Assembly: GCA_963662155.1 (NCBI GenBank)
Contig: OY759273.1
Span: 31,403,536-31,467,535, forward strand
DNA length: 64,000 bases
Direction: 5' to 3'
Origin: Lamellibrachia columna
Lineage: Eukaryota; Annelida; Polychaeta; Sabellida; Siboglinidae
Shown here: positions 5,537-56,539 of the stretch, in pieces
Layout of the letters: each line of letters starts with the position of its first letter
How positions within the stretch are numbered: the stretch's first letter is position 1
Notes under the pieces: generated by a model
What the model was told of the DNA's origin: nothing
Database searches by the model: none
Seen by the model: only the letters and a program-made list of their open reading frames with translations
Position numbers and translations under genes: made by a program

Positions 5537-7342
5537 TTAGTCAAGTTTCCTCGCAGAACGGTCGTGTAGATATGGCAAAACTTTGGTGCAATACAACTTA
5601 ATCAATTCAGTTGGGCCGCCACGTGCCAGGAATCCCCATTTGATGGGATGCACAAAGCTTTCCCCACTCAGGGAATTTGTTTTAACATACTTCCATGGCT
5701 CCATTTTAATAGTGCCCTGCTTTAGTTTTCCGATGAGTGGTTGAACGTCCTTTGATGCTACCAAGCACCGTACTATTGTTGGAACGGCAATTTCTATTAA
5801 CACCTTATGATGCAGAAATAGGTCAGCAAGTTCTATGAAGTCTTGCGAAAATTGGCTTGGAATGTAATAGATGTCGGAGAAAGCGCCGTTTGCGCGTTCT
5901 ATCGCTCCGTTCTCAGACAACAAGCGCTGGTAACACGCGTTCATGACAGTAGATGAGCTTCTTCTGTTCGCAATCTCTGCCAGAGCATTAGTCGTTGCAA
6001 TCTGGTACTTCTCCCACCAGTTCTGCTTGAACCACCATTCTGCTGGGAAGCCACACACGTCTTGTCTGCACTCGGTAAGTTTGCTGATTTCACCGATTTG
6101 AACATACGGCACGAACCACACCGCTTTCCTTATAAGTTTTGACAGCGTGTGCACAACAAGAAGCAGATCGTCTGATACTACTAAATAGCCCTGGACGGCA
6201 TAATCCATCTGCAAAGCCATCACCGTACACTTTTGAGTAAAAGCACCGTGCACATGACCGGCAGGATTACTTCCGTAGGAAATGAAAGAAAATGTAAACC
6301 GATTAACGCCTGGATAGAGATTCGCATCGATTGTGTCTGGACCACAGTATAGAATATTCGGGAAGAATGGCCGGTACAATGTTTCAACATATGGAATCGC
6401 ATCATAATGCGGGTTGTTGAAAATGACTAAGAGAAGCACGTCATCAAACTGTGTCCACGGTTGTGCAAAGTTGATGTGTACGTGCTTAGGCAACATAACA
6501 CTATAACGATGACATGTCTCATTGTAGAGCTTCGTCATGGAGTCGAGATTAGAAACAGGGGTGTATACACCTGGCCCTAAGTGTTGACGTGACAGGGGCA
6601 CTGAATAATCTACTGCATGCAAACTTACATTTTCACATTCTTCATTGAAAGAATGACTGAATAGTGGAAACGTGTAGCCATTCTTGTCCAATGCATTCAA
6701 CCAGTGGCTGTAAGATAACGCTAAAGAATCGTTCAGCAGCCCAGAGTTATTGGCAATTAGATCAAGAATGCACTGCTTCAAGGTCGTACTCCAGCAGTTC
6801 CACTTGTCCAGTTGATCCGCTACGGAGAATAACCGACTGGTCGCTGTCGAACTCAAGCTAGTCCTGCAGCGTCGTACAACAACCTGGTTCCCACTGAGCC
6901 ACAGTAAACGCTGCACACCTAAGCTCCACATTAAGCTCTCCTCAGGATCAGTCACCAGCGCTGCAGGCAAAGCCCAGAATGCGTCGCTTGTGTACAGCGC
7001 GTCTTCAAGATGAACTGGTGCGAATCTAGCGTTGGCCAATGCCACATTTGGGGCGCTGGCATCACAGGTGATGGACGAGTCTGGAATCTGCACTCCGGAA
7101 CATGTTGCCGTCGCCTGAATTGCTGCGACTTTGTGGCTGCACAATGAATACGACATCGCGGATGGGGAATGCTTTCCAACTGAAGTCCTGTTGCAGCCAA
7201 AGTGAGCTGCCACATCAAACATAAGGCCGCCAGATGTGGAGACTAACCCCGTCTGTGGTCCAACCGTTGAAGCATGCTTAGGCGGCTGTACTGTGCTGAC
7301 ATCTCTAAATGCCATAATGGGTAATATGACAGTTGCACCACG
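5537..7342 (-). CDS. STELLO-like (DUF288) protein, last exon, minus-strand gene
   Basis: A single 1,806-bp open exon encoding 601 residues to a stop at 5537. The acceptor (TTCTCTTTTACAG on the minus strand) lies just outside 7342, so the exon starts RGATVILPIMAFRDV in phase 0. The first ATG, at 7315, is internal. Recognisable DUF288/STELLO landmarks are SDAFWALPAAL, QRLLWLSGNQVVV, ETLYRPFFPNILYCG and YLVVSDDLLLV. Arabidopsis STELLO proteins are Golgi type II membrane glycosyltransferase-like proteins; animal homologues have no assigned reaction. The aligned start of the paralogue at 56,540 reads HGARYIYETDDDN. Here the acidic cluster is replaced by LPIMAFRD, so this copy lacks the presumed metal/nucleotide-sugar site. 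It may be a pseudo-enzyme or a diverged transferase. The frame is intact, which argues against an old pseudogene. Confidence 0.85.
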   Translation of the reverse strand, partial: RGATVILPIMAFRDVSTVQPPKHASTVGPQTGLVSTSGGLMFDVAAHFGCNRTSVGKHSPSAMSYSLCSHKVAAIQATATCSGVQIPDSSITCDASAPNVALANARFAPVHLEDALYTSDAFWALPAALVTDPEESLMWSLGVQRLLWLSGNQVVVRRCRTSLSSTATSRLFSVADQLDKWNCWSTTLKQCILDLIANNSGLLNDSLALSYSHWLNALDKNGYTFPLFSHSFNEECENVSLHAVDYSVPLSRQHLGPGVYTPVSNLDSMTKLYNETCHRYSVMLPKHVHINFAQPWTQFDDVLLLVIFNNPHYDAIPYVETLYRPFFPNILYCGPDTIDANLYPGVNRFTFSFISYGSNPAGHVHGAFTQKCTVMALQMDYAVQGYLVVSDDLLLVVHTLSKLIRKAVWFVPYVQIGEISKLTECRQDVCGFPAEWWFKQNWWEKYQIATTNALAEIANRRSSSTVMNACYQRLLSENGAIERANGAFSDIYYIPSQFSQDFIELADLFLHHKVLIEIAVPTIVRCLVASKDVQPLIGKLKQGTIKMEPWKYVKTNSLSGESFVHPIKWGFLARGGPTELIKLYCTKVLPYLHDRSARKLD

Positions 7343-7954
7343 CTGTAAAAGAGAACAATAAGGTTTAATTTCTTAAATATTTCAGAAAAGACATACAAGA
7401 AATTATTGGGGTTTTTTCTCATCCATATGCTGGTTTTAAAACTATCAACGTATATTGTGATGACAAACGTTACTAAGTAGAGATTCACTAAGTAGTAAGC
7501 TACATTTTGTTGATATTAATTTCGTGTTGAATAAAAATGGTCCTGCGTGACACTTGTACCTAGTTGATACTTAAAAGTCAGAATAGCTGAGTTCACACAT
7601 GAGATGATCTAAACAAGTTAATCCCAGTTAAGTATGATGCTTTCCACTATTGTTGGGTAATCTTTTAGTTTCCCGATTGATTGAACTATTTTGCAAAGCT
7701 ACCATTTTTGTATAATGTTACTTGGTTATTGGTTGTTTGCTATTAACACTAAACGGTCCTACACAGCGCTGTCTTTCACCAATCTAAGAACCAGATCAGC
7801 TTAACTAAGAAGATTAAATAAATTATAAAGAGTCAGAATGTTTGCATCTGTACACAGAGCTCGCGACGCAAAGATTCTGTATGACAAAGGAAGAAGCATA
7901 ACACTGCTATTACCACACAAACACTTCTACTGGTGCAATCACGTGGTTACACAC
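7343..7954 (-). other. Intron of the minus-strand STELLO-like gene
   Basis: Lies between the donor at 7955/7954 (CAG|GTGTGT) and the acceptor next to 7342. AT-rich, with no other feature seen. Confidence 0.55.
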
Positions 7955-13505: not shown

Positions 13506-13512
13506 CTGACAG

Positions 13513-13972
13513 TTATGGCCGGGCGGGAGGCTGGGGGGTAGGAACGTACTCCGCTGATGTTATGGCCGGGCGGGAGGCTGGGGGTAGGAACGTACTCCGC
13601 TGATGTTATGGCCGGGCGGGAGGCTGGGGGTAGGAACGTACTCCGCTGGTGTTATGGCCGGGCGGGAGGCTGGGGGTAGGAACGTACTCCGCTGATGTTA
13701 TGGCCGGGCGGGAGGCTGGGGGTAGGAACGTACTCCGCTGATGTTATGGCCGGGTGGGAGGCTGGGGGTAGGAACGTACTCCGCTGTTGTTATGGCCGGG
13801 TGGGAGGCTGGGGGTAGGAACGTACTCCGCTGGTGTTATGGCCGGGCGGGAGGCTGGGGGTAGGAACGTACTCCGCTGGTGTTATGGCCGGGTGGGAGGC
13901 TGGGTGGGAACGAACTCTGCTGGTGTTATGGCCGGGCGGGAGGCTGGGTGGGAACGAACTCTGCTGGTGTTA
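13513..13972. repeat. 46-bp minisatellite, about 10 copies
   Basis: The unit contains TGTTATGGCCGGGCGGGAGG followed by CTGGGGGTAGGAACGTACTCCGCTGA. The last two copies have diverged (TGGGTGGGAACGAACTC). It is GC-rich, in sharp contrast to the AT-rich surroundings, and lies in the first intron of the minus-strand STELLO-like gene. Confidence 0.95.
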
Positions 13973-14216
13973 TATTTCAATGCTGTGTTTGGGAGGTTCT
14001 GAGTGGCTGCCATTGGACGGCTTATGTACTTTGGCTGGAAAACAAGAATTAATTGGTCATTGTTGGAGTATGCCGTGTACATTTCTTTGTCCATATTTGA
14101 GGTGACCACCAGCAGCGCAGCTGTGGATCTGACAATTTGAAATTGTTCATCGCCTTCCACAGATAATCAATCATTGTATGAATATGGGTAGACATTTGTA
14201 CATTTGAAGTACTTAC

Positions 14217-16005: not shown

Positions 16006-16011
16006 GGGAGG

Positions 16012-16764
16012 CAGACCACGAGAAACCCTTGGAGGCAGACCATGAGAAACAACTTGGAGGCAGACCATGAGAAACAACGTGGAGGCAGACCATGAGAAAC
16101 AACGTGGAGGCAGACCACGAGAAACAACTTGGAGGCAGACCACGAGAAACAACGTGGAGGCAGACCATGAGAAACAACGTGGTGGCAGACCATGAGAAAC
16201 AACTTGGAGGCAGACCATGAGAAACACTTGGAGGCAGACCATGAGAAACAACTTGGAGGCAGACGATGAGAAACAGCGTGGAGGCAGACCATGAGAAACA
16301 ACTTGGAGGCAGACCATGAGAAACAACGTGGAGGCAGACCATGAGAAACAACGTCAAGGGAGACCACGAGAAACAACTTGGAGGCAGACCACGAGAAACA
16401 ACGTGGAGGCAGACGATGAGAAACAACGTGGAGGCAGACCATGAGAAACAACGTGGAGGCAGACCATGAGAAACAACGTGGAGACAGACCACGAGAAACA
16501 ACGTGGAGACAGACCACGAGAAACAACGTGGAGGCAGACCATGAGAAACAACGTGGAGGCAGACCACGAGAAACAACGTGGAGGCAGACCATGAGAAACA
16601 ACGTGGAGGCGGACCACGAGAAACAACTTGGAGGCAGACCACGAGAAACAACGTGGAGGCAGACCATGAGAAACAACGTGGAGACAGACCATGAGAAACA
16701 ACGTGGAGACAGACCACAAGAAACAACGTGGAGGCAGACCACAAGAAACAACGTGGAGGCAGAC
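16012..16764. repeat. 25-bp minisatellite, about 30 copies
   Basis: The unit is GGAGGCAGACCATGAGAAAC plus AACGT, with C/T and G/T variants. As 25 is not a multiple of 3, a stop-free unit keeps several frames open on both strands for hundreds of codons, repeating every 25 residues. The open frames of 301 and 311 codons on the minus strand are products of this and not genes. Confidence 0.95.
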
Positions 16765-18401: not shown

Positions 18402-21193
18402 CAATGGCGGATCAACCTATAGGCACTATAGGCACATGCCTAGGGCCCACGAAGCGAAGGGGCCCACGAAGACAAGGGGCCCACGAAGGGAAGGGGCCCA
18501 CGAAAACAGCCGAGCATATTTTTGTAGACTGAATGTTCCCGAAAACCAGTTATGTTTTGGCATATCCTGATGTAGGCCTTACCTGTTTTAATGTTTTTTA
18601 CAGATATTACAGAGGTGTTATTAAGGAGTGATCATTATTTATCGTGGAGCGAGTGAGGTGGAAGTATTGGTTGGATTTGAAATCCAGCTCACCCCCAAAT
18701 CATGTGCACTAAAAACTTAGCCCTCCCTTCATTCCTTGGTTTCCCTCCTGATAAATTATGACCGCTGCCTGTTTTCAGCAGTGCTTTCCGAAAATTGCGC
18801 AGGAATTGATAGACCATTTTACAAGAAACCCACCATCACAGAAATTGGAAAAGGATCTTCACAGATTGGCGAGATCGTAAACGTCCAAGACAAGATATGT
18901 ACAACGGAAATTCTTTGTTCGATGGCTTGCTAAGGAGGAGAGTGTAACGAGGGACTGGTTGATGTATTCTCCATCAACTGGAAATGTGTATTGTTATTTA
19001 TGTAAGCTACTCACGAGCGGAAGTGATAGCTTTTCTCTGAATGGTTTCAATGACTGGGAAAATGCGCACAGAATCACGACACATGAGCGTAGCGATAGTA
19101 ACTCAGTAGCTGTAAAGAAGGGGTTCGAAAGTGCAAAAGCGCATCATGTTGATTCTGCGATCGCAAAGCAGCTGGAGAATGAGCAGCAATACTGGATCGA
19201 ACTCTTCAAGCGCATCGTTGCCGTTGTTACCTTCTTGGCAGAGTCAGAGAGAGGACACCCGTTCCGGGACCACGCCGAGTTGTTTGGGCAGAAGTACAAT
19301 GGTACTTAGGCTTGTTAGAGTTGCACTCAAAGTTCGTCCCTTTTCTGGCCGAACATATTCACCGATATGGGAATAAAGGAAGAGGTCAAGTATCATATCT
19401 CTCTTCAACAATCTGTGAAGAATTCGTCAAGCTGTTATCGGACAGGGTGAAAGATAAAATAATTGCTGAAATAAAGAAGGCGAAATACTACTCTATCAGC
19501 ATAGATTCCACACCCGATATAGCACACATCGATCAACTGAGCATCGTCGTGCGATACGTTCGGATTGACGGACTACCCGTAGAACACTTCCTGGCGTTCA
19601 TAGACATTGAGAAACACGACGGGAAATACTTGTTCGAAACACTCAAGTCTTTCCTAGACGAATGCGGAATAAAGCTTGAGGATTGCCGTGGACAAATGTA
19701 TGACAATGCGAGAAATATGTCTGGAACTTATTCTGGAGTCCAGGCAAGATTTCACCAGGTGAACCCTCTTGTTGAATTGGTACCATGCGCAGCGCAAAGC
19801 CTACATTTAGTTGGGACCGCAGCGGTCGAATCCAGCACTGATGCGGTCAGGTTTTTCGCCATGTTCAGCGACTTTACACATTCTTGTCAGCCTCGCCACA
19901 GATGTGGTCGAAACTATTAGAGAACCTACAGAAACAGTCTCCAGTGGTAAAGAGCCTATAAGAAACACGATGGTCTGCTCGAGCAGATGCCGTGAAGGCG
20001 CTGGCATCAAACTACAAAGTAATACAAAACTCTGTTGACGCGATAGCTAGAAATTCTACCCAACCTCCACTTGTCGTGCTCGAGGCAAAGTCTTTGGTGA
20101 GCAAACGGAGCTATCTGAATATCGTCCTGATGTACATTGTGTGGAACAACATCCTGGACCGAGTTAACAAGGCATTGCAAGCTCCAGGAATTGAGATCGG
20201 TTCAGTGGTTATGCATTACCGTGTCTCGGTGGAACACATCCATTCTTTGCGTGACTCAGAAAGGTTCGATCGATTCGAGAATGAAACAAAGTCCGTTGCA
20301 CCAGGACTTGATTACGATGATGAAAACAAGCGAGCAAAGAAGATAAATTTGTTCCACGACGAAACACCAGAAGAGGTCAAAGTGAGCGGCTGTCGAGAGA
20401 ACTTCTGAGTGGACACGTACCTAGTCATCATTGAACAGATCACTCTCCGAAATCAAGAAACGGAAGGCCGCCTACACGAATGTCTATGAACGTTTCAGGA
20501 GATTCGATCTCTCGCCGACAGCGATATCACTTCGAAGTGCGAAGAGCTCACTCGGTATTACGATAATGATATTGAGCCTGATTTTGAGAAGGAATTCCGT
20601 CTCTTCACAAAATATGGAGACTTCGAGAAAGGTGCCGAGATGATAACCTTTCTTCATGAAAATAAGCTGATTACCAGTTTCCCTAATGTTCACATTGCGC
20701 TACGGATATATTTGTAAATGTTCGGCTCAAGCTGCGAAGGCGAGCGATCTTTCTCTGTACTGAAACATCAAAGACTACCAGCGTTCCACGATGGGTCAAT
20801 CGCGGTTGTCGGCACTGTCACGTTTAGCCATAGAGTCGGAAATGATGCGTTCATGATGACATTATTAGCTCGTTTGCCATCAAGAAAATACGCAAGTTAA
20901 AACTGTAGACTACGCATCGCTAAGCCTTAGGTGTGAGATGGTGTTAGTCGACTTCGACAATCGCTACCAGCCTACCGTACACCACGACAATATCTGCGAT
21001 ATGTAACTTGCAATGGTTGACTTTTAAAAGAAACACTGTTCGTGTATTAGCTTTATCGATGATTCATACATGTACATTATGCTGTGTAAATATAAATAGT
21101 GAAATGCTAACTTGAAAATCTTGTCGTGGGTTTACTTGGGGCCCACGAAAGTGCCGGGTGCTTAGGGCCCACGAATGTCTTAATCCGCCACTG
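18402..21193 (+). mobile_element. Complete hAT DNA transposon, 2.8 kb, 8-bp TSD
   Basis: The left end starts CAATGGCGGATCAACC. The right end, read on the minus strand, starts CAGTGGCGGATTAAGAC. The direct repeat ACCATGAC occurs immediately outside both ends (18,394-18,401 and 21,194-21,201), the 8-bp duplication diagnostic of hAT insertion. Both subterminal regions carry several GGGCCCACGAA copies, possible transposase binding sites. The transposase inside is broken. Both ends and the TSD are clean, so the insertion is probably fairly young even though the gene has decayed. Confidence 0.93.
18728..20900 (+). pseudogene. hAT transposase (DUF4371/ZMYM-like group), broken
   Basis: Segments in order: an N-terminal part at about 18,740-18,935; a zinc-finger-like part with VYCYLCKLLTSGSDSF at 18,959-19,309; a stop; then a long piece at 19,312-19,920. 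The long piece contains YYSISIDSTPDIAHIDQLSI, GQMYDNARNMSGTYSGVQAR and PCAAQSLHLVG, all hallmarks of DUF4371-containing hAT transposases related to ZMYM proteins. A C-terminal dimerisation region follows near 20,720-20,880, with CEGERSFSVLK in one frame and STMGQSRLSALSRLAIE in another. At least four frame breaks separate the pieces, so no active enzyme is made. The D of SIDST and of the YDNA motif is kept. Confidence 0.88.
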
Positions 21194-24363: not shown

Positions 24364-24369
24364 GCCCTT
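24364..24369 (+). repeat. Target-site duplication of the palindrome, left
   Basis: GCCCTT directly before the left arm. The same six bases follow the right arm at 38,943-38,948. A 7-8-bp reading (xGCCCTTA) is also possible if the arm is taken to start at GTAGTTAGTGG. Confidence 0.6.
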
Positions 24370-26460
24370 AGTAGTTAGTGGAGGTTTCTGAGACATCAAA
24401 TTGAGAGCACAGTCACGTGACCCAAACATCAAAGGCAAAACACCCTAATATCGCCCTACCGCTTCTGAGTGCGCGCAGCCAATCAGAAAGCAGCACTAGA
24501 CCTTGGAGCGCCCCCTGGCGGTGGTATCGGAGCGTGCGTGACGTAAGCGCCCCTAGCGACTGGAGGAGGAACGAGCTTTGTACGAATCTCATATCTATAC
24601 AACATTGACGATTTGCATATAACCATAGCGAAATCGTTGCAGTCGAATATGTGGTTTCGATAAGTTCTACGCGTGTTTGTTTATTGGTATAAAAGACGAA
24701 CACATATTTTATTGTTCCCGTGTACTAGAATCACGTCCATTTACAAGTGAATGAGTGTTCTAACGCGTGTTTAGGAGGATGTTACGGTTACATAAGTTTT
24801 ATTTGTTTTCTGAATCAATCCGTATGAAAATTAGCATCGTGACGCATCTTGTCCATACCACGGTAAATCATGCTGCGAGATCAAAGGATATTATTCATAA
24901 CAACGTTGCAATCGCGTCAATCAGCGACAATGTTACAAGTACGCGCTCCGTTCTTCTTTGAATGCGGCTTTTCACAACAACAAGACCACTTTGACATTGG
25001 TCAGTCGCTGTTGGTGAACTTTGGCTTGTGCGCTCCCACTCACATTGGTCAGTCGCTGTTGGTGGACTTTGGCTTGTGCGTTTCCGCTCGTCTTGTCTTT
25101 TTCACACTGGTCAGTCGCTGCTAGTGGACTTTGGCTTGTGCGTTTCCACTCGTCTTGTCTTTTTCACACTGGTCAGCCGCTATTGGTGGACTTTGACTTG
25201 TACGCTCCCACTCGTCTTGTCTTTTTGGAGGAGGAACGAACATTGACCTAGTTACGTGTATGTGTCGAAGGGTCGTTAACCTAGTAAGGAGACGAACATA
25301 TGCACACACGCAATGGGAACGAGAACTCGATACAAGACGGGAATATCAGTTCAAGCAAAATTTAATATATATGAAAACGAAGTACAACACTGCTTCCGGG
25401 ACCAAAGTAAGTCGTATTCGCGTGCCGCCCAACTTTTTAACTGCGCGATGGCTATACGCTAGCCGCGTAATGTTTTCGCGCGAGTATCCGTGGTAACAGT
25501 AACCGCGATAGTGGACATAGGAACGACTGTCCGTTAACAGCGGTCATTAATAGTATCATTAATAACTGAGATGAAAGAGTAAGTTAACAGTGGTCATTAA
25601 CAGGGTAATTAATAACTGAGATCAAAGGACCTAACGAGGAGACGAAAAATGAACAAAACACGATATCGTACTATATTTTCTTTATATGTAAATATTTAAA
25701 AATAATGCGCTTTTACATTGTATCCATAACTCCTACAGTTTACCCATAATTCCTACAATTTACCCATAAGTCTCCTATTGAATAAGAGTACAAGGACATT
25801 TTATTAAATATTTGAAAATAATGACACAATATCGTCCACAAACGTTAGACAGAGGACTGTAAAGTCTCTTGCCATACCGACGTAAAGCTGACGTAAGCTA
25901 TAAACGTGTCAGGACATGCAGCTGACGTATGCTGCACACACAACAATACCAAATAAGGACATGCAGCTGACGTAAACGGCATCAGACGCGTCACGGAAAG
26001 TGTACCATCAACATATTGTCGTTATATGTCAATATTTTAAAATAATGCGCCTGTACACTTTACCCATAACTCCTACAGTTTACCCATAATTCCTTCAATT
26101 TACCCATAATTCCTACAATTTACCCAGCACACATATATAGTGTAGTAACATTGTCCACAAACGTTAGACAGAGGACTCTAAATTTTCTTGTCATACCGAC
26201 GTACAGCTGACGAAAGCTATAAACGTGTCAGGACATGCTGCTGACGTAATCCGCATACAGAACAATAACAAATAAGGTAGTGCACGCTATGTATGCCAAT
26301 ATCAAAAGCCAGCAGGAGAACAACATTGTGGCAGCGATGACGGGAGTATGACGAGAAGCTGTGTGATATGTATGGAGACATTTGACACCATGTGACATGC
26401 ATGGAGACATTTACCACTGTGTGATATGCGTGGAGACATTGACAACCATGTGACATGCAT
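24370..26460 (+). repeat. Left arm, outer domain
   Basis: Mostly unique-looking DNA with three substructures. About four ~62-bp units containing TTGGTCAGTCGCTGTTGGTG and GGCTTGTGCG lie at 24,985-25,235. TTACCCATAA(T/C)TCCTACA arrays occur at 25,730-25,785 and 26,060-26,130. GTCCACAAACGTTAGACAGA and the block after it are duplicated at 25,833 and 26,153. Everything is mirrored at about 36,853-38,942. Confidence 0.75.
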
Positions 26461-29400
26461 GGAGAAATTGACCGCCATTTTTGAAAGTTTATGTTATGAA
26501 AGTTTGTAAGTTGGAAGTTTTGGAAGTTTGCTTCACCGCACACACGTTTTGAAAGTTTGTGTTGTGAAAAATGTGTAAGTTGGAAGTTTGCTTCACGTCA
26601 CACACACACACACGTTTTGAAAGTTTATGTTATGAAAGTTTGTAAGTTGGAAGTTTGCTTCACCGCACACACATTTTGTGTGAAGTTTGCGAGTTGGAAG
26701 TCTGCAAGTTGGAAGTTTTAGCTTTGGAAGTTTGCATATTGGAAGTTCTCCACTCCACTCCACGCCTGCTAAGTTGTGTAAAGTTGTGTGAAGTTGTGCA
26801 AAGTTGTACGAAGTTGTGTGAAGTTTGCGAGTTGGAAGTCTGCCAGTTGGAAGTTTGTGCTTTGGAAGTTTGTTTCACCGCACACACACGTTTTGAAAGT
26901 TTATGTTATGAAAGTTTGTAAGTTGGAAGTTTGCTTCACCGCACACACATGTTTTGAAAGTTTGTGTCATGAAAATTTGTTTGGAGACATTGACTGCCAT
27001 GTAACGTGCATGGAGACATTGACCGCAATGTGACATGCATGGAGACATTGACTATCATGTGACATGCATGGATACATTGACAACCATGTGACATGCATGG
27101 AGAAATTGACCGCCATTTTTGAAAGTTTATGTTATGAAAGTTTGTAAGTTGGAAGTTTTGGAAGTTTGCTTCACCGCACACACGTTTTGAAAGTTTGTGT
27201 TGTGAAAAATGTGTAAGTTGGAAGTTTGCTTCACGTCACACACACACGTTTTGAAAGTTTATGTTATGAAAGTTTGTAAGTTGGAAGTTTGCTTCACCGC
27301 ACACACATTTTGTGTGAAGTTTGCGAGTTGGAAGTCTGCAAGTTGGAAGTTTTAGCTTTGGAAGTTTGCATATTGGAAGTTCTCCACTCCACTCCACGCC
27401 TGCGAAGTTGTGTAAAGTTGTGTGAAGTTGTGCAAAGTTGTACGAAGTTGTGTGAAGTTTGCGAGTTGGAAGTCTGCCAGTTGGAAGTTTGTGCTTTGGA
27501 AGTTTGTTTCACCGCACACACACGTTTTGAAAGTTTATGTTATGAAAGTTTGTAAGTTGGAAGTTTGCTTCACCGCACACACATGTTTTGAAAGTTTGTG
27601 TCATGAAAATTTGTTTGGAGACATTGACTGCCATGTAACGTGCATGGAGACATTGACCGCAATGTGACATGCATGGAGACATTGACTATCATGTGACATG
27701 CATGGATACATTGACAACCATGTGACATGCATGGAGAAATTGACCGCCATTTTTTGAAAGTTTATGTTATGAAAGTTTGTAAGTTGGAAGTTTTGGAAGT
27801 TTGCTTCACCGCACACACGTTTTGAAAGTTTGTGTTGTGAAAAATGTGTAAGTTGGAAGTTTGCTTCACGTCACACACACACGTTTTGAAAGTTTATGTT
27901 ATGAAAGTTTGTAAGTTGGAAGTTTGCTTCACCGCACACACATTTTGTGTGAAGTTTGCGAGTTGGAAGTCTGCAAGTTGGAAGTTTTAGCTTTGGAAGT
28001 TTGCATATTGGAAGTTCTCCACTCCACTCCACGCCTGCGAAGTTGTGTAAAGTTGTGTGAAGTTGTGCAAAGTTGTACGAAGTTGTGTGAAGTTTGCGAG
28101 TTGGAAGTCTGCCAGTTGGAAGTTTGTGCTTTGGAAGTTTGCAAATTGGAAGTTTGCTTCACCGCACACACATGTTTTGAAAGTTTATGTTATGAAAGTT
28201 TGTAAGTTGTAAGTTTTGGAAGTTTGCTTCACCGCACACACATGTTTTGAAAGTTTGTGTTGTGAAAAATGTGTAAGTTGGAAGTTTGCTTCACGTCACA
28301 CACATACACGTTTTGAAAGTTTATGTTATGAAAATTTGTAAGTTGGAAGTTTGCTTCACCGCACACACATTTTGTGTGAAGTTTGCGAGTTGGAAGTCTG
28401 CAAGTTGGAAGTTTTAGCTTTGGAAGTTTGCATATTGGAAGTTCTTCACTCCACTCCACGCCTGCGAAGTTGTGTAAAGTTGTGTGAAGTTGTGCAAAGT
28501 TGTACGAAGTTGTGTGAAGTTTGCGAGTTGGAAGTCTGCCAGTTGGAAGTTTGTGCTTTGGAAGTTTGCAAATTGGAAGTTTGCTTCACCGCACACACAT
28601 GTTTTGAAAGTTTATGTTATGAAAGTTTGTAAGTTGGAAGTTTGCTTCACCGCACACACACATGTTTTTACCGCCATTTTTGAAAGTTTGTAAGTTGTAA
28701 GTTTTGGAAGTTTGCTTCACCGCACACACATGTTTTGAAAGTTTGTGTTGTGAAAAATGTGTAAGTTGGAAGTTTGCTTCACGTCACACACATACACGTT
28801 TTGAAAGTTTATGTTATGAAAGTTTGTAAGTTGGAAGTTTGCTTCACCGCACACACATTTTGTGTGAAGTTTGCGAGTTGGAAGTCTGCAAGTTGGAAGT
28901 TTTAGCTTTGGAAGTTTGCATATTGGAAGTTCTCCACTCCACTCCACGCCTGCGAAGTTGTGTAAAGTTGTGTGAAGTTGTGCAAAGTTGTACGAAGTTG
29001 TGTAAAGTTTGCGAGTTGGAAGTCTGCCAGTTGGAAGTTTGTGCTTTGGAAGTTTGCAAATTGGAAGTTTGCTTCACCGCACACACATGTTTTGAAAGTT
29101 TATGTTATGAAAGTTTGTAAGTTGTAAGTTTTGGAAGTTTGCTTCACCGCACACACATGTTTTGAAAGTTTGTGTTGTGAAAAATGTGTAAGTTGGAAGT
29201 TTGCTTCACGTCACACACATACACGTTTTGAAAGTTTATGTTATGAAAGTTTGTAAGTTGGAAGTTTGCTTCACCGCACACACATTTTGTGTGAAGTTTG
29301 CGAGTTGGAAGTCTGCAAGTTGGAAGTTTTAGCTTTGGAAGTTTGCATATTGGAAGTTGTCCACTCCACTCCACGCCTGCGAAGTTGTGTAAAGTTGTGT

Positions 29401-31440
29401 GAAGTTGTGCAAAGTTGTACGAAGTTGTGTAAAGTTTGCGAGTTGGAAGTCTGCCAGTTGGAAGTTTGTGCTTTGGAAGTTTGCAAATTGGAAGTTTGCT
29501 TCACCGCACACACATGTTTTGAAAGTTTATGTTATGAAAGTTTGTAAGTTGGAAGTTTGCTTCACCGCACACACACACACACACACACACACATGTTTTG
29601 ACCGCCATTTTTGAAAGTTTGTAAGTTGTAAGTTTTGGAAGTTTGCTTCACCGCACACACATGTTTTGAAAGTTTGTGTTGTGAAAAATGTGTAAGTTGG
29701 AAGTTTGCTTCACGTCACACACATACACGTTTTGAAAGTTTATGTTATGAAAGTTTGTAAGTTGGAAGTTTGCTTCACCGCACACACATTTTGTGTGAAG
29801 TTTGCGAGTTGGAAGTCTGCAAGTTGGAAGTTTTAGCTTTGGAAGTTTGCATATTGGAAGTTCTCTACTCCACTCCACGCCTGCGAAGTTGTGTAAAGTT
29901 GTGTGAAGTTGTGCAAAGTTGTACGAAGTTGTGTAAAGTTTGCGAGTTGGAAGTCTGCCAGTTGGAAGTTTGTGCTTTGGAAGTTTGCAAATTGGAAGTT
30001 TGCTTCACCGCACACACATGTTTTGAAAGTTTATGTTATGAAAGTTTGTAAGTTGTAAGTTTTGGAAGTTTGCTTCACCGCACACACATGTTTTGAAAGT
30101 TTGTGTTGTGAAAAATGTGTAAGTTGGAAGTTTGCTTCACGTCACACACATACACGTTTTGAAAGTTTATGTTATGAAAATTTGTAAGTTGGAAGTTTGC
30201 TTCACCGCACACACATTTTGTGTGAAGTTTGCGAGTTGGAAGTCTGCAAGTTGGAAGTTTTAGCTTTGGAAGTTTGCATATTGGAAGTTCTTCACTCCAC
30301 TCCACGCCTGCGAAGTTGTGTAAAGTTGTGTGAAGTTGTGCAAAGTTGTACGAAGTTGTGTGAAGTTTGCGAGTTGGAAGTCTGCCAGTTGGAAGTTTGT
30401 GCTTTGGAAGTTTGCAAATTGGAAGTTTGCTTCACCGCACACACATGTTTTGAAAGTTTATGTTATGAAAGTTTGTAAGTTGGAAGTTTGCTTCACCGCA
30501 CACACACATGTTTTGACCGCCATTTTTGAAAGTTTGTAAGTTGTAAGTTTTGGAAGTTTGCTTCACCGCACACACATGTTTTGAAAGTTTGTGTTGTGAA
30601 AAATGTGTAAGTTGGAAGTTTGCTTCACGTCACACACATACACGTTTTGAAAGTTTATGTTATGAAAGTTTGTAAGTTGGAAGTTTGCTTCACTGCACAC
30701 ACATTTTGTGTGAAGTTTGCGAGTTGGAAGTCTGCAAGTTGGAAGTTTTAGCTTTGGAAGTTTGCATATTGGAAGTTCTCCACTCCACTCCACGCCTGCG
30801 AAGTTGTGTAAAGTTGTGTGAAGTTGTGCAAAGTTGTACGAAGTTGTGTAAAGTTTGCGAGTTGGAAGTCTGCCAGTTGGAAGTTTGTGCTTTGGAAGTT
30901 TGCAAATTGGAAGTTTGCTTCACCGCACACACATGTTTTGAAAGTTTATGTTATGAAAGTTTGTAAGTTGTAAGTTTTGGAAGTTTGCTTCACCGCACAC
31001 ACATGTTTTGAAAGTTTGTGTTGTGAAAAATGTGTAAGTTGGAAGTTTGCTTCACGTCACACACATACACGTTTTGAAAGTTTATGTTATGAAAATTTGT
31101 AAGTTGGAAGTTTGCTTCACCGCACACACATTTTGTGTGAAGTTTGCGAGTTGGAAGTCTGCAAGTTGGAAGTTTTAGCTTTGGAAGTTTGCATATTGGA
31201 AGTTCTTCACTCCACTCCACGCCTGCGAAGTTGTGTAAAGTTGTGTGAAGTTGTGCAAAGTTGTACGAAGTTGTGTGAAGTTTGCGAGTTGGAAGTCTGC
31301 CAGTTGGAAGTTTGTGCTTTGGAAGTTTGCAAATTGGAAGTTTGCTTCACCGCACACACATGTTTTGAAAGTTTATGTTATGAAAGTTTGTAAGTTGGAA
31401 GTTTGCTTCACCGCACACACATGTTTTTGAAAGTTTGTGT
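26460..31440 (+). repeat. Left-arm higher-order tandem array
   Basis: Ten units measured at a fixed landmark (26,655, 27,289, 27,924, 28,351, 28,839, 29,266, 29,770, 30,197, 30,685, 31,112), so periods 634, 635, 427, 488, 427, 504, 427, 488, 427. Each unit is built from short words such as AAGTTTGC, AGTTGGAAGTTT and AAGTTGTGT. The two outermost units also carry GACATGCATGGAGACATTGA repeats. The 488/504-bp units differ from 427 by an extra module with ACCGCCATTTTTGAAAG. Frames such as LEVCELEVC are repeat translations. Confidence 0.92.
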
Positions 31441-31873
31441 AATGAGAGGAGTATAGCCATCTGACCACACCCACGCACGCTTGGTGTTGTATTCTCGCTA
31501 GTGACTCCCCTCTACATATGGACAAGCTCCATAGAGTAGTAGTGAGTCGAGTGTAGCCATTATCTTCTGGTTCCCACACCTCACCACCCCACCATAGAGT
31601 AATGGTACAGTCGCCAGGGGGGCGCAGGGGCGCGCGATTACAGGAAAAAGGTGTATTACGCGGAAAAGGTGTGTAATCGCGCGCCCCTGCGCCCCCCTGG
31701 CGACTGTACCATTACTCTATGGTGGGGTGGTGAGGTGTGGGAACCAGAAGATAATGGCTACACTCGACTCACTACTACTCTATGGAGCTTGTCCATATGT
31801 AGAGGGGAGTCACTATCGAGAATACAACACCAAGCGTGCGTGGGTGTGGTCAGATGGCTATACTCCTCTCATT
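31441..31873. repeat. Palindrome centre with 29-base loop
   Basis: About 200 bp of unique DNA per side around a loop at 31,643-31,671. The inner stem includes GGGGCGCGCGATTACA and its complement TGTAATCGCGCGCCCC and would be extremely stable as a hairpin. The one arm difference I see here is G in CTAGCGAG (left, read inverted) against T in CTATCGAG (right, near 31,815). Confidence 0.85.
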
Positions 31874-34800
31874 ACACAAACTTTCAAAAACATGTGTGTG
31901 CGGTGAAGCAAACTTCCAACTTACAAACTTTCATAACATAAACTTTCAAAACATGTGTGTGCGGTGAAGCAAACTTCCAATTTGCAAACTTCCAAAGCAC
32001 AAACTTCCAACTGGCAGACTTCCAACTCGCAAACTTCACACAACTTCGTACAACTTTGCACAACTTCACACAACTTTACACAACTTCGCAGGCGTGGAGT
32101 GGAGTGAAGAACTTCCAATATGCAAACTTCCAAAGCTAAAACTTCCAACTTGCAGACTTCCAACTCGCAAACTTCACACAAAATGTGTGTGCGGTGAAGC
32201 AAACTTCCAACTTACAAATTTTCATAACATAAACTTTCAAAACGTGTATGTGTGTGACGTGAAGCAAACTTCCAACTTACACATTTTTCACAACACAAAC
32301 TTTCAAAACATGTGTGTGCGGTGAAGCAAACTTCCAAAACTTACAACTTACAAACTTTCATAACATAAACTTTCAAAACATGTGTGTGCGGTGAAGCAAA
32401 CTTCCAATTTGCAAACTTCCAAAGCACAAACTTCCAACTGGCAGACTTCCAACTCGCAAACTTTACACAACTTCGTACAACTTTGCACAACTTCACACAA
32501 CTTTACACAACTTCGCAGGCGTGGAGTGGAGTGGAGAACTTCCAATATGCAAACTTCCAAAGCTAAAACTTCCAACTTGCAGACTTCCAACTCGCAAACT
32601 TCACACAAAATGTGTGTGCAGTGAAGCAAACTTCCAACTTACAAACTTTCATAACATAAACTTTCAAAACGTGTATGTGTGTGACGTGAAGCAAACTTCC
32701 AACTTACACATTTTTCACAACACAAACTTTCAAAACATGTGTGTGCGGTGAAGCAAACTTCCAAAACTTACAACTTACAAACTTTCAAAAATGGCGGTCA
32801 AAACATGTGTGTGTGCGGTGAAGCAAACTTCCAACTTACAAACTTTCATAACATAAACTTTCAAAACATGTGTGTGCGGTGAAGCAAACTTCCAATTTGC
32901 AAACTTCCAAAGCACAAACTTCCAACTGGCAGACTTCCAACTCGCAAACTTCACACAACTTCGTACAACTTTGCACAACTTCACACAACTTTACACAACT
33001 TCGCAGGCGTGGAGTGGAGTGAAGAACTTCCAATATGCAAACTTCCAAAGCTAAAACTTCCAACTTGCAGACTTCCAACTCGCAAACTTCACACAAAATG
33101 TGTGTGCGGTGAAGCAAACTTCCAACTTACAAATTTTCATAACATAAACTTTCAAAACGTGTATGTGTGTGACGTGAAGCAAACTTCCAACTTACACATT
33201 TTTCACAACACAAACTTTCAAAACATGTGTGTGCGGTGAAGCAAACTTCCAAAACTTACAACTTACAAACTTTCATAACATAAACTTTCAAAACATGTGT
33301 GTGCGGTGAAGCAAACTTCCAATTTGCAAACTTCCAAAGCACAAACTTCCAACTGGCAGACTTCCAACTCGCAAACTTTACACAACTTCGTACAACTTTG
33401 CACAACTTCACACAACTTTACACAACTTCGCAGGCGTGGAGTGGAGTGGAGAACTTCCAATATGCAAACTTCCAAAGCTAAAACTTCCAACTTGCAGACT
33501 TCCAACTCGCAAACTTCACACAAAATGTGTGTGCGGTGAAGCAAACTTCCAACTTACAAACTTTCATAACATAAACTTTCAAAACGTGTATGTGTGTGAC
33601 GTGAAGCAAACTTCCAACTTACACATTTTTCACAACACAAACTTTCAAAACATGTGTGTGCGGTGAAGCAAACTTCCAAAACTTACAACTTACAAACTTT
33701 CAAAAATGGCGGTCAAAACATGTGTGTGTGTGTGTGTGTGTGTGCGGTGAAGCAAACTTCCAACTTACAAACTTTCATAACATAAACTTTCAAAACATGT
33801 GTGTGCGGTGAAGCAAACTTCCAATTTGCAAACTTCCAAAGCACAAACTTCCAACTGGCAGACTTCCAACTCGCAAACTTTACACAACTTCGTACAACTT
33901 TGCACAACTTCACACAACTTTACACAACTTCGCAGGCGTGGAGTGGAGTGGACAACTTCCAATATGCAAACTTCCAAAGCTAAAACTTCCAACTTGCAGA
34001 CTTCCAACTCGCAAACTTCACACAAAATGTGTGTGCGGTGAAGCAAACTTCCAACTTACAAACTTTCATAACATAAACTTTCAAAACGTGTATGTGTGTG
34101 ACGTGAAGCAAACTTCCAACTTACACATTTTTCACAACACAAACTTTCAAAACATGTGTGTGCGGTGAAGCAAACTTCCAAAACTTACAACTTACAAACT
34201 TTCAAAAATGGCGGTCAAAACATGTGTGTGTGCGGTGAAGCAAACTTCCAACTTACAAACTTTCATAACATAAACTTTCAAAACATGTGTGTGCGGTGAA
34301 GCAAACTTCCAATTTGCAAACTTCCAAAGCACAAACTTCCAACTGGCAGACTTCCAACTCGCAAACTTCACACAACTTCGTACAACTTTGCACAACTTCA
34401 CACAACTTTACACAACTTCGCAGGCGTGGAGTGGAGTGAAGAACTTCCAATATGCAAACTTCCAAAGCTAAAACTTCCAACTTGCAGACTTCCAACTCGC
34501 AAACTTCACACAAAATGTGTGTGCGGTGAAGCAAACTTCCAACTTACAAATTTTCATAACATAAACTTTCAAAACGTGTATGTGTGTGACGTGAAGCAAA
34601 CTTCCAACTTACACATTTTTCACAACACAAACTTTCAAAACATGTGTGTGCGGTGAAGCAAACTTCCAAAACTTACAACTTACAAACTTTCATAACATAA
34701 ACTTTCAAAACATGTGTGTGCGGTGAAGCAAACTTCCAATTTGCAAACTTCCAAAGCACAAACTTCCAACTGGCAGACTTCCAACTCGCAAACTTTACAC

Positions 34801-36853
34801 AACTTCGTACAACTTTGCACAACTTCACACAACTTTACACAACTTCGCAGGCGTGGAGTGGAGTGGAGAACTTCCAATATGCAAACTTCCAAAGCTAAAA
34901 CTTCCAACTTGCAGACTTCCAACTCGCAAACTTCACACAAAATGTGTGTGCGGTGAAGCAAACTTCCAACTTACAAACTTTCATAACATAAACTTTCAAA
35001 ACGTGTATGTGTGTGACGTGAAGCAAACTTCCAACTTACACATTTTTCACAACACAAACTTTCAAAACATGTGTGTGCGGTGAAGCAAACTTCCAAAACT
35101 TACAACTTACAAACTTTCATAACATAAACTTTCAAAACATGTGTGTGCGGTGAAGCAAACTTCCAATTTGCAAACTTCCAAAGCACAAACTTCCAACTGG
35201 CAGACTTCCAACTCGCAAACTTCACACAACTTCGTACAACTTTGCACAACTTCACACAACTTTACACAACTTCGCAGGCGTGGAGTGGAGTGGAGAACTT
35301 CCAATATGCAAACTTCCAAAGCTAAAACTTCCAACTTGCAGACTTCCAACTCGCAAACTTCACACAAAATGTGTGTGCGGTGAAGCAAACTTCCAACTTA
35401 CAAACTTTCATAACATAAACTTTCAAAACGTGTGTGTGTGACGTGAAGCAAACTTCCAACTTACACATTTTTCACAACACAAACTTTCAAAACGTGTGTG
35501 CGGTGAAGCAAACTTCCAAAACTTCCAACTTACAAACTTTCATAACATAAACTTTCAAAAAATGGCGGTCAATTTCTCCATGCATGTCACATGGTTGTCA
35601 ATGTATCCATGCATGTCACATGATAGTCAATGTCTCCATGCATGTCACATTGCGGTCAATGTCTCCATGCACGTTACATGGCAGTCAATGTCTCCAAACA
35701 AATTTTCATGACACAAACTTTCAAAACATGTGTGTGCGGTGAAGCAAACTTCCAACTTACAAACTTTCATAACATAAACTTTCAAAACGTGTGTGTGCGG
35801 TGAAACAAACTTCCAAAGCACAAACTTCCAACTGGCAGACTTCCAACTCGCAAACTTCACACAACTTCGTACAACTTTGCACAACTTCACACAACTTTAC
35901 ACAACTTCGCAGGCGTGGAGTGGAGTGGAGAACTTCCAATATGCAAACTTCCAAAGCTAAAACTTCCAACTTGCAGACTTCCAACTCGCAAACTTCACAC
36001 AAAATGTGTGTGCGGTGAAGCAAACTTCCAACTTACAAACTTTCATAACATAAACTTTCAAAACGTGTGTGTGTGACGTGAAGCAAACTTCCAACTTACA
36101 CATTTTTCACAACACAAACTTTCAAAACGTGTGTGCGGTGAAGCAAACTTCCAAAACTTCCAACTTACAAACTTTCATAACATAAACTTTCAAAAATGGC
36201 GGTCAATTTCTCCATGCATGTCACATGGTTGTCAATGTATCCATGCATGTCACATGATAGTCAATGTCTCCATGCATGTCACATTGCGGTCAATGTCTCC
36301 ATGCACGTTACATGGCAGTCAATGTCTCCAAACAAATTTTCATGACACAAACTTTCAAAACATGTGTGTGCGGTGAAGCAAACTTCCAACTTACAAACTT
36401 TCATAACATAAACTTTCAAAACGTGTGTGTGCGGTGAAACAAACTTCCAAAGCACAAACTTCCAACTGGCAGACTTCCAACTCGCAAACTTCACACAACT
36501 TCGTACAACTTTGCACAACTTCACACAACTTTACACAACTTAGCAGGCGTGGAGTGGAGTGGAGAACTTCCAATATGCAAACTTCCAAAGCTAAAACTTC
36601 CAACTTGCAGACTTCCAACTCGCAAACTTCACACAAAATGTGTGTGCGGTGAAGCAAACTTCCAACTTACAAACTTTCATAACATAAACTTTCAAAACGT
36701 GTGTGTGTGTGTGACGTGAAGCAAACTTCCAACTTACACATTTTTCACAACACAAACTTTCAAAACGTGTGTGCGGTGAAGCAAACTTCCAAAACTTCCA
36801 ACTTACAAACTTTCATAACATAAACTTTCAAAAATGGCGGTCAATTTCTCCAT
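31873..36853 (-). repeat. Right-arm higher-order tandem array
   Basis: Inverted counterpart of the left array. From the centre outward the periods are 427, 488, 427, 502, 488, 427, 427, 635, 634. The left arm, in the same direction, gives 427, 488, 427, 504, 427, 488, 427, 635, 634. The unit with the extra ATGGCGGTCAAAACATG module near 34,205 therefore sits one unit closer to the centre than its left-arm partner near 28,670. Confidence 0.9.
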
Positions 36854-38942
36854 GCATGTCACATGGTTGTCAATGTCTCCACGCATATCACACAGTGGTA
36901 AATGTCTCCATGCATGTCACATGGTGTCAAATGTCTCCATACATATCACACAGCTTCTCGTCATACTCCCGTCATCGCTGCCACAATGTTGTTCTCCTGC
37001 TGGCTTTTGATATTGGCATACATAGCGTGCACTACCTTATTTGTTATTGTTCTGTATGCGGATTACGTCAGCAGCATGTCCTGACACGTTTATAGCTTTC
37101 GTCAGCTGTACGTCGGTATGACAAGAAAATTTAGAGTCCTCTGTCTAACGTTTGTGGACAATGTTACTACACTATATATGTGTGCTGGGTAAATTGTAGG
37201 AATTATGGGTAAATTGAAGGAATTATGGGTAAACTGTAGGAGTTATGGGTAAAGTGTACAGGCGCATTATTTTAAAATATTGACATATAACGACAATATG
37301 TTGATGGTACACTTTCCGTGACGCGTCTGATGCCGTTTACGTCAGCTGCATGTCCTTATTTGGTATTGTTGTGTGTGCAGCATACGTCAGCTGCATGTCC
37401 TGACACGTTTATAGCTTACGTCAGCTTTACGTCGGTATGGCAAGAGACTTTACAGTCCTCTGTCTAACGTTTGTGGACGATATTGTGTCATTATTTTCAA
37501 ATATTTAATAAAATGTCCTTGTACTCTTATTCAATAGGAGACTTATGGGTAAATTGTAGGAATTATGGGTAAACTGTAGGAGTTATGGATACAATGTAAA
37601 AGCGCATTATTTTTAAATATTTACATATAAAGAAAATATAGTACGATATCGTGTTTTGTTCATTTTTCGTCTCCTCGTTAGGTCCTTTGATCTCAGTTAT
37701 TAATTACCCTGTTAATGACCACTGTTAACTTACTCTTTCATCTCAGTTATTAATGATACTATTAATGACCGCTGTTAACGGACAGTCGTTCCTATGTCCA
37801 CTATCGCGGTTACTGTTACCACGGATACTCGCGCGAAAACATTACGCGGCTAGCGTATAGCCATCGCGCAGTTAAAAAGTTGGGCGGCACGCGAATACGA
37901 CTTACTTTGGTCCCGGAAGCAGTGTTGTACTTCGTTTTCATATATATTAAATTTTGCTTGAACTGATATTCCCGTCTTGTATCGAGTTCTCGTTCCCATT
38001 GCGTGTGTGCATATGTTCGTCTCCTTACTAGGTTAACGACCCTTCGACACATACACGTAACTAGGTCAATGTTCGTTCCTCCTCCAAAAAGACAAGACGA
38101 GTGGGAGCGTACAAGTCAAAGTCCACCAATAGCGGCTGACCAGTGTGAAAAAGACAAGACGAGTGGAAACGCACAAGCCAAAGTCCACTAGCAGCGACTG
38201 ACCAGTGTGAAAAAGACAAGACGAGCGGAAACGCACAAGCCAAAGTCCACCAACAGCGACTGACCAATGTGAGTGGGAGCGCACAAGCCAAAGTTCACCA
38301 ACAGCGACTGACCAATGTCAAAGTGGTCTTGTTGTTGTGAAAAGCCGCATTCAAAGAAGAACGGAGCGCGTACTTGTAACATTGTCGCTGATTGACGCGA
38401 TTGCAACGTTGTTATGAATAATATCCTTTGATCTCGCAGCATGATTTACCGTGGTATGGACAAGATGCGTCACGATGCTAATTTTCATACGGATTGATTC
38501 AGAAAACAAATAAAACTTATGTAACCGTAACATCCTCCTAAACACGCGTTAGAACACTCATTCACTTGTAAATGGACGTGATTCTAGTACACGGGAACAA
38601 TAAAATATGTGTTCGTCTTTTATACCAATAAACAAACACGCGTAGAACTTATCGAAACCACATATTCGACTGCAACGATTTCGCTATGGTTATATGCAAA
38701 TCGTCAATGTTGTATAGATATGAGATTCGTACAAAGCTCGTTCCTCCTCCAGTCGCTAGGGGCGCTTACGTCACGCACGCTCCGATACCACCGCCAGGGG
38801 GCGCTCCAAGGTCTAGTGCTGCTTTCTGATTGGCTGCGCGCACTCAGAAGCGGTAGGGCGATATTAGGGTGTTTTGCCTTTGATGTTTGGGTCACGTGAC
38901 TGTGCTCTCAATTTGATGTCTCAGAAACCTCCACTAACTACT
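36853..38942 (-). repeat. Right arm, outer domain
   Basis: Inverted copy of 24,370-26,460, including the mirrored ~62-bp repeats (about 38,078-38,330) and the TTATGGGTAAA arrays. I saw no rearrangement relative to the left arm. Confidence 0.75.
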
Positions 38943-38948
38943 GCCCTT
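38943..38948 (+). repeat. Target-site duplication of the palindrome, right
   Basis: GCCCTT directly after the right arm, identical to 24,364-24,369. Confidence 0.6.
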
Positions 38949-56316: not shown

Positions 56317-56539
56317 GGCATACATGCAGGCATATATGTTACACATGTAAAACAAAAGTAAACTATTTTTACAAAGTAGTTTCATATTTAACACCTCCAT
56401 ACCTAACAGTCATTTCTTCACAATATTCTACAGCTTGAAAATATGCAATATGCTAGAGTTTGAATTGGGTAAATAATATCGCTGAACACTGTATTTATGT
56501 AACATGTGTAGTTACATTTGTCATTATTCTGTGACACAG
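56095..56539 (+). other. Intron of the plus-strand STELLO-like gene
   Basis: Contains a (CATA)n microsatellite at about 56,236-56,312. The acceptor is GTGACACAG ending at 56,539. Confidence 0.7.

Follow-up and report, generated by a model that had tools for sequence, protein, structure and literature searches.

The window analysed here is a stretch of 64,000 nucleotides from the tubeworm Lamellibrachia columna (contig OY759273.1; C13:31403536-31467535), and it contains a palindrome of 14.6 kb (positions 24370-38942) whose structure, insertion and relationship to Polinton/Maverick elements are our subject. An earlier, sequence-only reading of the window had described two inverted arms of about 7.27 kb around a 29-base loop. 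This is borne out both by blastn, in which the longest pieces of the inverted repeat measure 5,264 bp (98.8% identity) and 4,484 bp (98.7%), and by a single gapped self-alignment of the whole element (14,723 columns, 97.5%, 65 mismatches, 300 gaps). Complementarity between the arms is exact over the outer 3,964 bp; aligned half against half, the element spans 7,350 columns, of which 126 contain gaps, and has 18 mismatches, 10 of them inside the loop. The termini read AGTAGTTAGTGGAGG... on the left and ...CCTCCACTAACTACT on the right, and the arms are made of tandem repeats, at least in their interior (Table 1). The only open reading frames (ORFs) of at least 120 amino acids, counted from stop to stop, are two mirror copies of 126 amino acids that consist partly of tandem repeat, and none reaches 130; thus no gene is apparent in the palindrome, in agreement with the earlier description.

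Table 1. Features of the palindrome and its borders, in window coordinates.
Feature	Position	Strand	Remarks
Left 6-bp target-site duplication, GCCCTT	24364..24369		abuts left end; uninterrupted paralogues have one block
Left arm of palindrome	24370..31642	+	blastn and gapped self-alignment
Outer 211 bp, left arm	24370..24580	+	83-84% to terminal inverted repeat of Polinton L030/L031
Arm 229-469	24598..24838	+	80-84% to long terminal repeat of a diverged AGTAGTATAG-type Polinton-like element (L058/L059)
Arm 857-1018	25226..25387	+	like right and left subterminal DNA of Polinton L030/L031
Arm 1449-1506	25818..25875	+	remnant of Polinton gene near right end, antisense (tblastn KRLYSPLSNVCGRYCV)
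Arm 1764-1821	26133..26190	+	second, weaker remnant of the same near-right-end Polinton gene
Tandem-repeat interior of left arm	26359..31440	+	nested periods of 10 bp to ~427 bp, plus larger ~635-bp repetition
29-base loop	31643..31671		144 bp of exact inverted repeat adjoining
Right arm, mirror of left arm	31672..38942	-	arm-arm alignment
Outer 211 bp, right arm	38732..38942	-	Polinton-type terminal repeat
Right 6-bp target-site duplication, GCCCTT	38943..38948		abuts right end

Insertion of the palindrome as a unit

The block GCCCTT, which occurs six times on the + strand of the window, lies directly outside both ends of the palindrome, as the sequence-only reading had noted in arguing for insertion as a unit and in suggesting a search for empty sites with a single block. 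We searched the genome (30 contigs, 879,693,805 bases) with the two flanks joined by one GCCCTT, scoring 40 of 435 candidates, and found the host site to be a dispersed repeat. Among the 67 matches listed, 38 cross the junction at 76-86% identity; the remaining 29 comprise both flanks of the element itself and 27 places that match only in the right part. All five of the 38 sites that were read align straight through the junction, four of them with GCCCTT and one with GCTCTT. On the right, most of the 38 matches stop some 60 bases beyond the junction, at a run of C, where most relatives of the site have several hundred extra bases that are absent here; this is an indel in the host repeat, separate from the insertion.

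A second palindrome (C13:32638056-32647645) interrupts a transposase-like frame, which we take by eye to be hAT-like. Its joined flanks match across the junction at 22 of the 29 places listed, and the three empty sites read each contain a single ACGATC. Exact 6-bp target duplications flank all 11 members of the palindrome family (see below) whose ends were read: GCCCTT, GCGATA, TCCATG, AGCCTA, CACATA, GACATA, GACGGT, ACGATC, TATATA, GCCGGT and AACGTT, of which TATATA, lying in a TA run, is uninformative. The whole palindrome was inserted precisely, as a unit, with a 6-bp duplication, and the uninterrupted paralogous sites of two palindromes support the earlier argument. Chance is excluded as the origin of the palindrome and its flanking GCCCTT by the 11 of 11 exact duplications and the five of five uninterrupted sites.

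An artefact of assembly or library, arising from palindromic reads with missing adapters or from the collapse of one arm, is very improbable. It would draw on the length of the HiFi reads, whose mean of about 8.8 kb (66.46 Gb in 7.58 million reads; computed from the totals given in PMC13080331) is less than the 14.6 kb of the element. Against it stand the differing flanks with matching duplications, the uninterrupted paralogous sites of two palindromes, the 34 head-out pairs described below, and variants that are common to both arms of an element.

Palindromes and gene-bearing Polintons in the same genome

Searching for other copies of the outer ends, a check that the sequence-only reading had put forward, turned up a family. 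When the outermost 1,001 bases of the arm served as query, all 40 scored places (of 1,756 candidates) fall in 20 head-out pairs. An arm-specific 40-mer (arm positions 233-272, at most three mismatches), used as the family marker, occurs at 92 places in the genome, while its reversed control occurs at none. These places comprise 34 head-out pairs within 40 kb, all of them exact copies of the marker, and 24 unpaired places, seven exact and 17 diverged. Estimated from the marker positions, with 232 bases added at either end, the palindromes measure 6.6-16.8 kb in 31 of the 34 pairs and 22.0, 31.7 and 33.2 kb in the others. The two largest (C9:51754969-51788216, 33.2 kb; C7:27175287-27206940, 31.7 kb), about twice the usual size, consist of nothing but arm sequence; each has one hairpin core, placed off-centre, and no nested element.

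Eight of the 10 copies compared, the window's included, have the 29-base loop, altered at one position at most, enclosed in an exact hairpin whose length varies from 35 to 8,064 bp; in several copies the hairpin is off-centre. Copy C13b lacks the loop. Copy C4, 7.5 kb long, has a single complete arm and a short left end; its loop is retained, its hairpin is not. No ORF of at least 130 amino acids was found in eight of 10 palindromes, and the single such ORF in each of the other two is tandem repeat. The element E_C5 (C5:42531096-42545136) has its outer 2.4 kb and core in common with the window element; the interior differs, with no blastn match between outer part and core on either arm. That the palindromes are two single-arm elements that landed head-out side by side, or a Polinton inverted after insertion, seems scarcely credible: the 24 unpaired marker places and the one-armed copy C4 would fit such an origin, whereas a single duplication surrounds the whole, the same loop recurs in an exact hairpin in eight of 10 copies, and a second pair of element ends is absent from the cores read.

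The palindromes read have AGTAGT...ACTACT termini. Polintons in general are described as carrying a protein-primed polymerase and a retroviral-like integrase and as measuring typically 15-25 kb (PMC6431247), and for vertebrate Mavericks the end motifs (AGT)2//(ACT)2 and perfect 6-bp duplications are reported (PMC8097293). In the tubeworm genome a degenerate end pattern matches 129 + 114 places, with none for the reversed control, and two patterns that sort the inner terminal repeat match 168 + 164 and 129 + 126 places, again with nil controls. Polinton-type ends are thus abundant genome-wide, some of the places being palindromes, fragments or repeats within one end, and Polinton copies probably number over a hundred. 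Among 100 listed places of the 129 + 126 pattern there are 45 head-out pairs; six are palindromes, and 36 of the other 39 measure 17.4-18.1 kb.

One Polinton of this ~17.8-kb class, C1:53060992-53078718, taken from the places of the degenerate end pattern (its halves, L030 and L031, were studied apart), has several large ORFs between terminal repeats of ~220 bp at 98% identity and is flanked by the duplication AACTTT. It encodes an integrase core (E 5.6e-12) with a chromo domain (E 1.5e-5), a replication-factor-A domain, a NADAR domain and an ATPase-like frame with weak likeness to adenovirus IVa2. Relatives of its polymerase part bear PF03175; the part itself falls below a match, and its frame is apparently interrupted by a stop. 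Two further frames, L031:6331-7701 and L031:7676-8182, gave no match in a Pfam search; by eye, we presume the first to be capsid-like and the second a protease. The former has 2,445 relatives among 7,999 candidates, one of which carries PF21738, and the closest named relatives of the presumed capsid-like protein are from Lamellibrachia satsuma. A protein 70% identical to it (P0027) is recorded as belonging to a bacterial endosymbiont of Escarpia laminata; it is probably host DNA in a bacterial bin.

Five further elements, recognised by extended matches to L030/L031 or by having its frames, are flanked by the duplications GACGTG, ACGAGT, TATGTG, GATGTT and GACGGG (ACGAGT, GATGTT and GACGGG read by eye from the flanks), so that exact 6-bp duplications occur in all six scored Polintons of the AGTAGTTAG end type. 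Two loci were excluded from this scoring: C7:42260577 (L041/L042), whose end reads AGTAGTAGGTGG with an ambiguous boundary, and L047, a single unpaired end. A genome search with the PF03175 profile gave one weak match, and its recall here is evidently poor, since polymerase-like genes are present; among the 150 of 3,622 candidates scored with the rve profile none was traced to a Polinton, and an Rfam search gave no match. The autonomous element with like ends that the sequence-only reading had proposed to look for is probably represented by these gene-bearing ~17.8-kb Polintons, whose terminal repeats are homologous to the palindrome's (83-84% over 211 bp for L030/L031). The same genome therefore holds a family of palindromes, with Polinton-type ends and Polinton-related stretches in the arms, and gene-bearing Polintons with an integrase.

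Very short elements with Polinton ends, miniature relatives of the Polintons, also occur. L048 (C2:19644766-19644864) is a 99-bp hairpin with a 6-bp flanking repeat, TATATA, in a TA run, and L049 (C3:54611082-54611183) a 102-bp hairpin with the duplication GACAGG. L049 reads through about 66 bases of a Polinton-type end and then back to its own terminus, and it looks like a very short integrated snapback. The two elements suggest that less than 40 bp of each end suffices. A third place, of 102 bp (C14:36623605-36623706), has both Polinton end motifs and no hairpin in the part read.

Composition and identity of the arms

By its matches, the arm is a mosaic with links to two or more Polinton lineages (Table 1). 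Its terminal repeat, closest among those read to that of L030/L031, is 76-83% identical to the other Polinton ends. Further inward, arm 857-929 matches the right and arm 929-1018 the left subterminal DNA of L030/L031, and two gene remnants are recognisable as protein KRLYSPLSNVCGRYCV (tblastn, E 7e-4 and 2e-5); the Polinton gene behind them we take, by eye, to be the protease. Arm 229-469 matches the terminal repeat of a second, diverged kind of element, as do short blocks that lie between arm positions 1220 and 1873. This element, on C12, has AGTAGTATAG-type ends, is 14.0 kb long, and carries a terminal repeat of ~1.3 kb (80% identity between ends) and an imperfect duplication, TGCAGT/TGCATT; after its right end come 1,345 bp with 79% identity to Polinton L031. 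This second end type (L056, L057, L058, L059) has 19 + 19 places in the genome. At a place on C11, arm-like DNA adjoins a stretch 78% identical to the L030 polymerase region. The tandem repeats are mostly untraced, save for a 460-bp match at 68% in one related place.

Arm statistics were taken over the outer 1.76 kb of 10 palindromes, with base differences counted in gap-free columns and E_C4 left out, one of its arms being missing. For all 20 arms the nearest arm is the partner in the same element (19 strictly, one in a tie). While 38 columns vary among elements with both arms agreeing in every element, 11 vary between arms, each in a single element, and gap columns agree between arms in 27 of 30 cases. 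Had the arms changed independently as the elements multiplied, left-right differences would have been inherited and become common to copies, and there are none such among the 10 palindromes. Because in 10 of 10 palindromes no arm of another element is closer to an arm than its own partner is, the arms appear to be re-homogenised about once per cycle. One copy, C13:26296047-26310607, is 99.6% identical to the window arm from position 44 inward and has its outermost bases replaced alike at both ends; on the simplest reading, one end would have changed and then been copied to the other arm.

Long inverted repeats undergo gene conversion, and ordinary chromosomal gene conversion could keep the arms of a Polinton derivative identical. 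This alternative shares its classification with the explanation that we prefer, so that the odds of the two overlap, and we consider it unlikely though well short of negligible. The small number of arm-arm differences, just 11 gap-free columns in 10 elements, is compatible with it and weighs against our explanation in that such identity could have arisen after insertion. On the other side, the mirror reaches the terminal base in the copies read, including the one with both outer ends replaced, and gene-bearing Polintons with short terminal repeats are equally homogeneous (100% over 209-215 bp in three of three pairs; in two others 98.2% and 98.7%), a pattern consistent with repair linked to replication in both kinds of element.

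Origin of the palindromes and known systems

We suggest that the palindrome is very likely a gene-free, non-autonomous derivative of a Polinton/Maverick, integrated in trans. It is a derivative and not a Polinton proper, because the polymerase, integrase, protease, ATPase and capsid genes are all missing from it. The possibility raised by the sequence-only reading, that the element is moved by enzymes of another family, Polintons being mentioned, gains support from the Polinton-type ends and duplication length and from the gene-bearing Polintons, and the likely source can now be named as a Polinton. A Polinton integrase would recognise the AGTAGTTAGTGG ends in trans and insert linear DNA with a 6-bp stagger, and the protein-primed Polinton polymerase would replicate the palindrome as a linear molecule, as is suggested by the Polinton terminal repeat that both ends bear. 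Strand displacement would free a single strand, which could fold about the central hairpin to give a duplex 7 kb long. The arms would then be equalised, and the mirror made or re-made, by mismatch repair within that duplex or by self-primed completion of an unfinished strand. This foldback (snapback) step, in which the displaced strand folds at the hairpin and one arm is copied from the other, we favour by a modest degree. The founding event may have been a snapback at a Polinton end, followed by tandem-repeat growth of the arms, and the outermost bases may later have been exchanged with other Polinton lineages.

Several observations weigh against this account. The best Polinton terminal repeat read is only 83-84% identical over 211 bp and none is near-identical, so the true helper may be outside the Polintons read. 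The arm combines pieces related to two or more Polinton lineages with tandem repeats that are for the most part untraced, so that its derivation from one known Polinton by a single snapback step is no more than conjecture. Two of the 10 copies depart from the common core (C13b without the loop, C4 with a single full arm), and one of the 11 arm-arm differences has a base that is also fixed in two other elements. Finally, since the mean HiFi read is shorter than the element, the repeat number inside the arms may be wrong; the outer arms are still anchored in their flanks.

The palindromes could, more speculatively, be heritable snapback satellites of a virus-like element of animals. As such they would replicate as linear molecules via a self-complementary hairpin with the protein-primed Polinton polymerase, a single template serving to re-make both arms in each cycle, might travel in Polinton capsids, and might act as defective-interfering elements or, via long hairpin transcripts, as a source of small RNAs against Polintons. 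We offer this as a tentative idea, doubtful as it stands. Sizes bear on it in that 31 of the 34 palindromes are no longer than 16.8 kb, below the ~17.8-kb Polinton unit, and three are longer. A strict packaging ceiling was rejected on account of those three; a ceiling perhaps broken by later repeat growth is only suggested.

Like Polintons, the palindromes have AGTAGT...ACTACT ends, 6-bp duplications, a homologous terminal repeat, and subterminal and gene remnants. Unlike them, they encode nothing and are inverted repeat throughout, in contrast to ~220-bp terminal repeats around genes, and they range from 6.6 to 33 kb, as against ~17.8 kb for gene-bearing Polintons. With the foldback elements (Drosophila FB, Galileo, sea-urchin TU) they have in common long inverted arms of tandem repeats and little or no unique DNA. 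FB, Galileo and TU have target duplications of 7 to 9 bp and P-, hAT- or MULE-type ends, and their arms are shorter than those of the window palindrome; here, by contrast, ends and 6-bp duplication are Polinton-type, and no P/hAT/MULE link was seen. The earlier proposal of a large non-autonomous foldback element thus stands as regards the foldback shape, the lack of genes and insertion as a unit, and, to judge from the ends and the duplication, falls as regards kinship with FB, Galileo and TU. A true foldback element, moved by a P-, hAT- or MULE-type transposase and resembling Polintons by coincidence, would account for the long inverted tandem-repeat arms around a tiny loop; it is nevertheless highly improbable, given the 6-bp duplications in 11 of 11 elements, the 211-bp terminal homology, the Polinton pieces that include gene remnants, and the lack of any transposase-like frame in the elements, eight of 10 having no ORF of at least 130 amino acids and the other two ORFs being tandem repeat.

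Snapback (self-complementary) genomes, symmetric and asymmetric, are documented for adeno-associated virus (PMC8235507). The likeness would lie in one viral end being inverted and duplicated, with both termini functional, and in the symmetric and asymmetric forms; the tubeworm palindromes differ in being integrated in the genome, in dozens of copies. Replication and integration of the virus differ from those of Polintons, and adenovirus snapback equivalents exist. Examined for a helper's terminus, the arm holds Polinton terminal, subterminal and gene pieces from more than one lineage, with repeats mostly untraced, and the clean small example is the 102-bp L049. Miniature inverted-repeat transposable elements (MITEs) and other non-autonomous DNA elements are alike in that the ends alone seem enough, as in the elements of 99 and 102 bp, which share these ends and are flanked by 6-bp repeats. 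The palindromes differ from them in size, being about 100 times larger, and in carrying sequence that has been duplicated and not just deleted.

In the literature searched, which lay mostly outside subscription journals and repeat-database reports, we found neither palindromic nor non-autonomous Polintons described, nor the mechanism proposed here, and within that literature a foldback-shaped, gene-free Polinton satellite is apparently an undescribed variant. Polinton replication has been deduced mainly from gene content. A gene-free palindrome with arms kept identical through successive jumps would be natural evidence on that process, and any model of Polinton replication would have to account for the copying of one end onto the other. 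It would also give Polintons a satellite class of their own, offer a minimal, ends-only substrate for integrase and polymerase function, make arm-arm divergence a built-in insertion clock, and unite foldback elements with MITEs and with the snapback genomes of viruses in a single system.

Elsewhere in the window, two long frames that match Pfam STELLO glycosyltransferases (5540-7372 on the - strand, E 2.3e-8; 56486-58267 on the + strand, E 1.2e-23) flank the palindrome in opposite orientation and are probably host paralogues. A frame at 19183-19917 (+) matches DUF4371 (E 1.1e-10) and, to judge by eye, presumably resembles the transposase-like frame interrupted by the palindrome at C13:32638056. 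Two minisatellites lie at 13512-13973 (10 x 46 bp) and 16007-16764 (30 x 25 bp), at 93-96% match.

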